A DNA stretch of 43,582 nucleotides from a bacterium (GTDB taxonomy: Bacteria; Bacillota; Clostridia; Lachnospirales; Lachnospiraceae). A program made the position numbers and the translations under genes. This document shows, piece after piece, positions 3,395 to 7,674 of this stretch (position 1 is its first letter; each line of letters opens with the position of its first letter). Location: assembly GCA_028727105.1 (NCBI GenBank), contig JAQYOU010000019.1:1-43582 (forward strand), written 5' to 3'. The notes under the pieces are model-generated. The model had not been told where the DNA came from and ran no database searches. It saw nothing but the letters and a program-made list of their open reading frames with translations.

Positions 3395-3857
3395 GACACG
3401 CTTCCCCCTTTTTATAGTTTAGATAGGAACGGATCCCTCTCAGCTGGCCCTCGTAGCCGGAGCATCGGCACAGATTGCCTGCCAGATATTCCTTGATCTC
3501 ATCGTCGGTTGCATCGGGGTTTTCCCGATAGAGGGCGATCGCATTCATCATCAGTCCCGGATTGCAGAAGCCGCATTGCTCTGCACCCTCGTCTGCAATG
3601 TAGGCACCGTATGCCTCTGCCTCCTCACGAAGCCCCTCCAGCGTCACCACGTCATGCCCCTCCACACGGGCTGCCAGTGTACTGCAGCTGAGCACCGGTT
3701 TCCCGTCCACAAACACCGTGCAAAGGCCACAGTTTCCGGTCTCACAGCCACGCTTGACACTATAGCATTTCATACTGCGCAAAAGGTCCAAAAGAAGCGT
3801 ATCCGCAGAGATCGGGACGGTTCTTTCCACTCCATTCAAAGTAAATCTTACATCCAT
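3387..3857 (-). CDS. 2Fe-2S subunit of molybdenum hydroxylase
   Basis: Start trimmed to MDVRFTLNGVERTV. Cys motifs CETGNCGLCTVFVDG and CGFCNPGLMM...NLCRCSGYEG. Confidence 0.9.
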   Translation of the reverse strand: MDVRFTLNGVERTVPISADTLLLDLLRSMKCYSVKRGCETGNCGLCTVFVDGKPVLSCSTLAARVEGHDVVTLEGLREEAEAYGAYIADEGAEQCGFCNPGLMMNAIALYRENPDATDDEIKEYLAGNLCRCSGYEGQLRGIRSYLNYKKGEACHE

Positions 3858-6064: not shown

Positions 6065-6463
6065 TTACGCCTCCTGCATGTCTTCCAGTCTGCCATGTTT
6101 CTCATAGCTTGTGATGCGCTCCACATGGTTGTTTTCATCCACAAAGACCACCGAGGGCTTGTGCGCTTTTGCCTCCTCCGGTGTCATCGTTGCATACGCC
6201 ATGATGATGATCTTATCGCCTGTTGACACGCAGCGCGCAGCTGCTCCGTTCAGACAGATCATTCCGCTACCGCGTTCACCGGCAATGGTGTAGGTCTCAA
6301 AGCGGCTGCCGTTGTTTACGTCAACGATCTGAACTTTTTCATATTCCAATATGCCGGATGCTTCCAGCAGCGCCTCATCCACCGTGATGCTACCCACATA
6401 GTCCAGCTCCGCCTGGATGACGGTTGCACGATGGATCTTTCCTTTCAGAAGTTCGATGTTCAT
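6065..6463 (-). CDS. panD: Aspartate 1-decarboxylase
   Basis: [39 protein letters not shown] retains the Gly-Ser self-cleavage site; also [19 protein letters not shown]. Confidence 0.95.
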
Positions 6464-6500
6464 ATTTTTGTCTCCATTTCTCTTCCACTACAACATCGCA

Positions 6501-6662
6501 GGACAACCCTATGGATCCATGCTTTCTCGACTTCCGTTGCACGAACCATTCCACTGAGCCTTGTAAAACACACACCGTGTTCAGCAATGGCTTCCACGGT
6601 GTCAAGTCTCAGTTCCATCGTGCAAAAGTCATTCGAGAAAGCATGAATCCTCTTGGTTGTCC
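6501..6662. repeat. Long imperfect inverted repeat (~162 nt hairpin) between panC and panD
   Basis: Left arm ggacaaccctatggatccatgctttctcga (6501-6530) pairs with tcgagaaagcatgaatcctcttggttgtcc (6633-6662). Inner arms ttgcacga...actgag..cttg / caagtctcagttcca tcgtgcaa and caccgtg/cacggtg continue the stem. Confidence 0.85.
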
Positions 6663-6676
6663 AGCCCATATGCTCG

Positions 6677-6836
6677 TTATATCATGTGCAAAAACAGCAC
6701 ATGATCAACATTCGTCGTTCGTCAATCATGCAAGCATGTTGACTCTCTTGCACTCATTATATCGTGACAAAACCAGTCACGATCAACATTCGTCACTCGT
6801 CAATCATGCAAGCATGTTGACTCGTTTGCACTCATG
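6677..6836. repeat. Two tandem ~78-80 bp repeats, each with two small palindromes
   Basis: Unit 1 ttatatcatgtgcaaaaacagcacatgatcaacattcgtcgttcgtcaatcatgcaagcatgttgactctcttgcactca; unit 2 ttatatcgtgacaaaaccagtcacgatcaacattcgtcactcgtcaatcatgcaagcatgttgactcgtttgcactca. Confidence 0.92.
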
Positions 6837-7674
6837 ATATCATAAAATTATCAATTAGACGGGTCTTGCCAATATATACTGCAAGTGCAACTAACATCGG
6901 CTCTTTCACGGATTCGATCTGCTGCATGGTGAGACCGTCTACGGCTTTGACGTAGTCGATGCGTGCCAGCGGCTCTTTTTCGATCAATGCGCTCATCTCG
7001 GATACGATCTTTTTCGCATTTGTTTCTCCTGCGGCTACCAGTTCCTGTCCAAGTTTTACCGCCTTTGACAGCACCAGTGCCGCCTGTCGCTCCTCTGCAG
7101 AGAGGTAGGTGTTGCGGGAGCTCTTTGCCAGGCCGTCCTCCTCACGCACGATGGGACATCCGATGATCTCCAGATCCATGTTCAGATCCTGTACCATCCG
7201 CTTGATGATCGCCAGCTGCTGTGCATCCTTTTGTCCAAAATATGCCCGGTCGGGCTGCACGATGTTGAACAGCTTATTGACAACCGTACACACGCCGCGG
7301 AAGTGTACCGGGCGTGATAATCCGCATAATTCCTCGGTCAACACAGACATATCCACATAAGAACAGAAGCCGTCTGTGTACATTTCTTCCGGTTCGGGGT
7401 GGAAGATCAGGTCTGCACCCAGAGACTCGCAGTATGCGCTGTCCTTGTCCAGGTCTCTGGGATAGCTCTCTAAATCCTCGCCCGGTCCAAACTGCATCGG
7501 GTTGACAAAAATACTGACAACGACCTTGTCATTCTCTGCGCGTGCACGGCTGATCAGGCTGCCGTGTCCCTCATGTAAATAGCCCATGGTCGGAACAAAT
7601 CCAACGCTTAAGCCCTCTTTTTTCCATGCTTTTACATTTGCTCTAACTTCATTTATTGTAGTTGCGATCTGCAT
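6832..7674 (-). CDS. panC: Pantothenate synthetase (pantoate-beta-alanine ligase)
   Basis: VGFVPTMGYLHEGHGSLISRARAENDKVVVSIFVNPMQFGPGEDLESYPRDLDKD and YFGQKDAQQLAIIKRMV. Confidence 0.96.
   Translation of the reverse strand: MQIATTINEVRANVKAWKKEGLSVGFVPTMGYLHEGHGSLISRARAENDKVVVSIFVNPMQFGPGEDLESYPRDLDKDSAYCESLGADLIFHPEPEEMYTDGFCSYVDMSVLTEELCGLSRPVHFRGVCTVVNKLFNIVQPDRAYFGQKDAQQLAIIKRMVQDLNMDLEIIGCPIVREEDGLAKSSRNTYLSAEERQAALVLSKAVKLGQELVAAGETNAKKIVSEMSALIEKEPLARIDYVKAVDGLTMQQIESVKEPMLVALAVYIGKTRLIDNFMIS

Follow-up and report, generated by a model that had tools for sequence, protein, structure and literature searches.

ERIC elements of enterobacteria and Correia/NEMIS elements of Neisseria are MITEs that are short, mostly intergenic, palindromic, multi-copy and non-autonomous, and that may lie within transcripts (PMC10969869). 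REP/BIME repeats, which are mobilized by RAYT tyrosine transposases, are intergenic DNA hairpins that occur as inverted doublets (PMC3733652). Quasipalindrome correction, or template switching, produces hairpins in which one arm has been copied into the other, with perfect stems and without wobble intermediates (PMC8794818, PMC8604942). The element analyzed here, from the panC-panD intergenic region of a 43,582-nt stretch of a Lachnospiraceae genome (the window), resembles each of these systems in the features given. It differs from ERIC and Correia/NEMIS in that one core is common to elements whose terminal repeats are of two unrelated kinds and whose duplications differ in length, in that the arms match within but not between copies, and in its Lachnospiraceae hosts. 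It departs from REP/BIME, whose hairpins measure 20-40 nt, in having a core of ~98 nt and in the terminal repeats with duplications borne in two lineages; and whereas quasipalindrome correction has been described for individual sites, as a mutational process, here it would operate over a dispersed family with a core that retains mismatches. Searches of open-access (PMC) papers for bacterial palindromic and MITE-like repeats did not find the family, and two relevant papers, searched by word, yielded no mention of these bacteria; subscription journals lay outside that scope, and an earlier description is possible.

The palindromic element, arms plus core, occupies positions 6501-6662 on the minus strand, on the evidence of arm search, RNA folding, and single-stranded DNA folding. 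The upstream gene is panC (6832-7674, minus strand), and the start codon of panD (6065-6463, minus strand) is 37 nt downstream of the hairpin. In the minus-strand sense, the 5′ outer arm spans 6633-6662, a sequence absent from other copies, and the 3′ outer arm spans 6501-6530; measured over 6498-6530 and 6633-6665, the arms are 82% complementary across 33 nt, with 102 nt intervening. The conserved core (6530-6634, minus strand) matches covariance model R1 at 111 bits, the window copy being one of the sequences from which that model was built, and contains stacked helices, an A.G mismatch, the internal loop AUGGA/GGAAUG, and an apical GUGGAAGCCAUUGCUGAACAC. The minus-strand RNA of 6501-6662 folds at −83.7 kcal/mol, compared with −43.4 ± 3.8 kcal/mol for shuffled sequences (z −10.6, none of 200 as stable), which together with the arm complementarity confirms the ~160-nt imperfect hairpin between panC and panD proposed by the first-pass annotation; the inner pairing and the caccgtg/cacggtg tip are as first described, and the wider minus-strand span 6464-6836, suggested there for folding, is stable as well (z −9.6). 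The plus strand folds at −74.4 kcal/mol (z −9.8) and the single-stranded DNA at −49 kcal/mol (z −12). A wobble on the minus strand had also been claimed, and the window copy, with its arms aligned from an anchor, does show two G-U pairs and no A-C on that strand, but the strand preference is weak because the plus strand is nearly as stable.

Two 78-nt tandem units on the minus strand (6686-6763 and 6764-6841; 85% mutual identity) adjoin the hairpin, and the panC stop codon lies at the edge of this repeat. The units are outside the palindromic element and belong to a separate dispersed repeat family, which occurs without the hairpin elsewhere in the same genome; the hairpin and repeats, first taken as a single ~340-nt insert, are adjacent and distinct. 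The 78-nt unit has about a dozen strong matches in its own genome and is in tandem at several sites (window 6686-6841; L257, L258, L259).

Between panC and panD the window has 368 nt, as against ~13 nt in G006 and G008. Among nine genomes of the same genus, the hairpin is missing between panC and panD in seven, namely the two just named, G002, G004, G005, and G009, which also have short spacers, and G001, where the spacer holds only 78-nt repeats, about three units. The G003 spacer keeps ~23 nt of the 3′ outer arm alone (L081), without the core, and for G007 the panD search gave no match, so that its spacer could not be read. On these sequence comparisons, the panC-panD spacer copy is confined to this lineage. 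A second vacant site is provided by the copies at 3704 and 3939 of C161, both of which are present in G001 and missing in G008 and G003; a vacant orthologous site in relatives is one of the marks of a MITE.

With the hairpin as query, 19 matches were obtained in the window's own genome, ~16 of which are other copies of the inner ~98-nt core, some partial; the outer arms of the window copy found no match elsewhere in that genome. An operon-specific cis-acting RNA regulator of panD-coaBC would fit the stable minus-strand fold and the location 37 nt ahead of panD, where the core strand has the same sense as the operon, but the ~16 further copies lie at unrelated genes, sister species lack the element in the same spacer, the plus strand is nearly as stable, and Rfam yields no match, and we regard such a regulator as very improbable. 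The comparison of panC-panD spacing, proposed by the first-pass annotation as a check, thus went against a pan-specific reading. Across 22 nt, the conserved core strand is 86% complementary to panD codons close to the start (window 6417-6438 and 6611-6632), probably by chance since the core motif is common to all copies.

A degenerate core pattern was found in at least 111 GTDB genome stretches, nearly all of them Lachnospiraceae by record title; the few outlier matches are ascribed to chance because a profile search found no core in them. A covariance model scan of 200 Lachnospiraceae genomes, a sample with almost one genome per genus, detected the core in 12, one of them the window's own; the matches listed amount to 1 to 19 copies per genome. 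In 300 Firmicutes genomes, where at most 13 candidates per genome were scored by covariance model and weak copies may escape, the core was found only in the window's own genome. Zero core-pattern matches were obtained in 2.9 million viral contigs and no blastn match to the element in plasmid records, and a viral or plasmid origin was dropped on these grounds. By simple ORF calls, without annotation, none of 114 GTDB copies lies within an ORF longer than 150 aa, and no transposase was seen to recur beside them; a shared neighboring gene was likewise discarded, the families that recur being just common ones, ABC transporters for example. Multiple dispersed non-coding copies are a further mark of a MITE.

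In several genera, the hairpin is central in a ~235-bp element with ends GATTMGGGTGTCAAAAGCC, and the flanks of these elements have 7 bp in common (z 5.6 at length 7, neighboring lengths being without comparable signal). TA was the initial guess for the target-site duplication and was discarded after the 7-bp signal. Core-less 72-bp derivatives are also flanked by perfect 7-bp pairs. In G520, the same core is found in ~280-bp elements with ends TAGGYAATTGCGAAACTC and ~12-bp duplications (z 6.2 at length 12), and core-less palindromes occur there too. The presence of one core inside two terminal-repeat types indicates that two transposition systems moved elements built around it, and since core-less derivatives also multiply, the core is dispensable for transposition of those MITEs. 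Neither terminal-repeat type was found at the window copy, which has no demonstrated duplication, so its mode of insertion is deduced from relatives; we take the window hairpin to be an older family member and the ends in its genus to be of a third type. In G520 we also observed a 330-bp type-2 MITE class (L394-L398) in which ~50 nt of other sequence replaces the 5′ half of the core; two of its members, L394 and L395, are near-identical, flanks included.

The early suggestion of a MITE-like element is supported by the many copies at unrelated loci, the vacant orthologous sites, and the terminal inverted repeats and target-site duplications in relatives. Many identical copies with duplications at unrelated loci had been named as the observation that would count against a pan-specific regulator, and this is in substance what was found, the copies being similar and not identical. 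That the family is a dispersed mobile palindromic DNA repeat is held with high confidence, and confidence in any named enzyme as its mover is low. No autonomous transposon was detected near the copies or when seven genomes were scanned for TIRs; in G544, a TIR pair of 1.8 kb was considered and rejected, as no transposase-like ORF was evident by eye. A Y1/RAYT transposase partner was also rejected, since L254 and L255, where the own genome's two Y1 transposases lie, contain no core. REP copies flank a RAYT gene, whereas the RAYT-like gene of the window's genome has no core beside it. REP hairpins have GTAG (or CGTC) at the foot; on informal inspection, several copies in the window's genus show GTAG near the 3′ foot (for example window TGTTGTAGTGG), which was not seen as constant in other lineages. 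A RAYT-like tyrosine transposase gene (Y1_Tnp, 264 aa) is located at L253 1090-1884 (G000:C102), and immediately downstream there is a short direct repeat, perhaps the REP that belongs to it.

When the core was aligned in 45 copies, 21 of its 28 pairs had two-sided changes and the unpaired positions were nearly invariant. In 38 copies, two-sided changes were present in 20 of the 28 pairs, with a covariation score of 0.424, compared with 0.157 for shuffled and at most 0.096 for slid pairing. RNA that is selected for pairing is expected to tolerate G-U on its own strand far above A-C. Among copies that are related and hence not independent, the core pairs comprised 1222 Watson-Crick, 14 G-U, and 12 A-C, and orientation relative to co-directional flanking genes was sense in 50 and antisense in 47. 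Applied as a control to the large SRP RNA from 27 related genomes, the same method gave 1397 Watson-Crick, 349 G-U, and 15 A-C. Because G-U is hardly commoner than A-C in the core, unlike in SRP RNA, the structure is read as kept at the DNA level, and the sequence data suggest that the pairing is conserved as folded DNA and not for an RNA switch in the pan operon. Arm-to-arm copying would itself erase wobble intermediates, so what carries the argument for DNA is that the residual mismatches are symmetric.

A dispersed structured RNA family, acting with sense-strand function in transcripts of many operons, would be consistent with the strong covariation and invariant loops, and with the window's genus, where the outer arms have 24 G.T against 8 A.C (p 0.007) and 17 copies are sense and 8 antisense, a non-significant excess (p 0.11). 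Set against this are the lack of a G-U excess over A-C in the core, compared with ~23 to 1 in SRP RNA, and the even orientation overall, and we consider a family of this kind unlikely. No curated Rfam model matches the element, and tolerance of G-U far above A-C, the property looked for in a structured RNA, is absent from the core. The function as RNA envisaged initially was therefore not upheld, there being neither G-U tolerance in the core nor sense-strand bias, and with the lineage-specific presence added, differential expression of panD-coaBC is unsupported. The case warns against taking covariation together with a stable fold as proof of RNA.

The G.T excess in the arms and the sense excess in the window's genus may leave room for a local RNA effect. 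Compatible with a mobile element would be an incidental consequence of the insertion, such as RNase III cutting of the inserted palindrome or another uncoupling of panC and panD, as any panC-panD read-through RNA would carry a long near-perfect outer duplex; RNase III cutting or an uncoupling effect has been reported for Correia elements in Neisseria (PMC10969869). We consider such an effect at this locus possible but not probable.

The outer arms pair within each copy and mostly do not pair between copies. In G452, twelve copies have stems of 86-116 nt that are 91-100% paired, six of them at 100%. Between G452 copies, identity is 0.65 for the arms (0.43 for shuffled) and 0.86 for the cores, values from fixed windows in which the arm windows are offset and within-copy pairing is understated, the stem lengths and pairing having been measured separately. 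The match within copies and divergence between them indicate copying from one arm to the other, for which template switching is a known route (PMC8794818); homogenization of inverted-repeat arms has likewise been reported (PMC8604942). We infer that this copying takes place at replication or at transposition, and renewal of the arms by fold-back is somewhat favored. Arms are less perfect in the window's genus, as expected of older copies.

If the arms instead arose at each insertion by inverted copying of the flanking host DNA, they would differ in nearly every copy, as they do, and a single arm without a core might be met, as in the G003 spacer. In type-1 MITEs, internal deletion also leaves remnants with a single arm (L363-L365), and the arms of different G452 copies are alike above chance, which makes the arms there element-derived; an origin by inverted duplication of host flanks was rejected on this evidence and is quite unlikely. 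Given core-less forms that retain part of one arm, internal deletion is the simplest reading of the G003 remnant, which may alternatively be a half-built ancestor.

Our preferred interpretation, with a probability of roughly three in four, is a non-autonomous MITE-like palindromic DNA repeat with a core of folded DNA between arms that fold-back copying renews. The core would act as folded single-stranded DNA, in hairpin or cruciform form, its invariant loops held by a putative cis function; the arms would be kept alike or renewed via fold-back template switching in replication or transposition, and mobility would be supplied in trans by transposases reading the outer repeats. Any effect on panD, by transcript cleavage or altered coupling to panC, would be incidental. 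The family joins two traits that are usually separate, an RNA-like covarying core, assigned to DNA by the G-U test, and co-changing arms. A more speculative idea, to which we give a low probability, is that the core, as a transferable module of folded DNA, nucleates the fold-back copying of adjacent DNA. Such a module, placed beside an insertion-sequence end, would copy that end across and give rise to a new MITE whose terminal repeats match, which would explain one core with unrelated ends, the differing duplication lengths, and the long, perfect, copy-specific arms. Should arm renewal or MITE formation turn out to be driven by the core, the origin of MITEs would become directly testable.

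Close core pairs tend to be head to head: of the 11 pairs no more than 2.5 kb apart, 8 have the order −+ (L002, L003, L007, L067, L143, L154, L196, L247). Near copies of the core, we observed a sub-threshold match to Clostridiales-1 RNA and a clear lysine riboswitch (L196 4591-4714; L324 1331-1541). A third repeat of ~120 nt (L042 8410-8529, G000:C161) is present at more than 10 sites in the window's genome and in several relatives.
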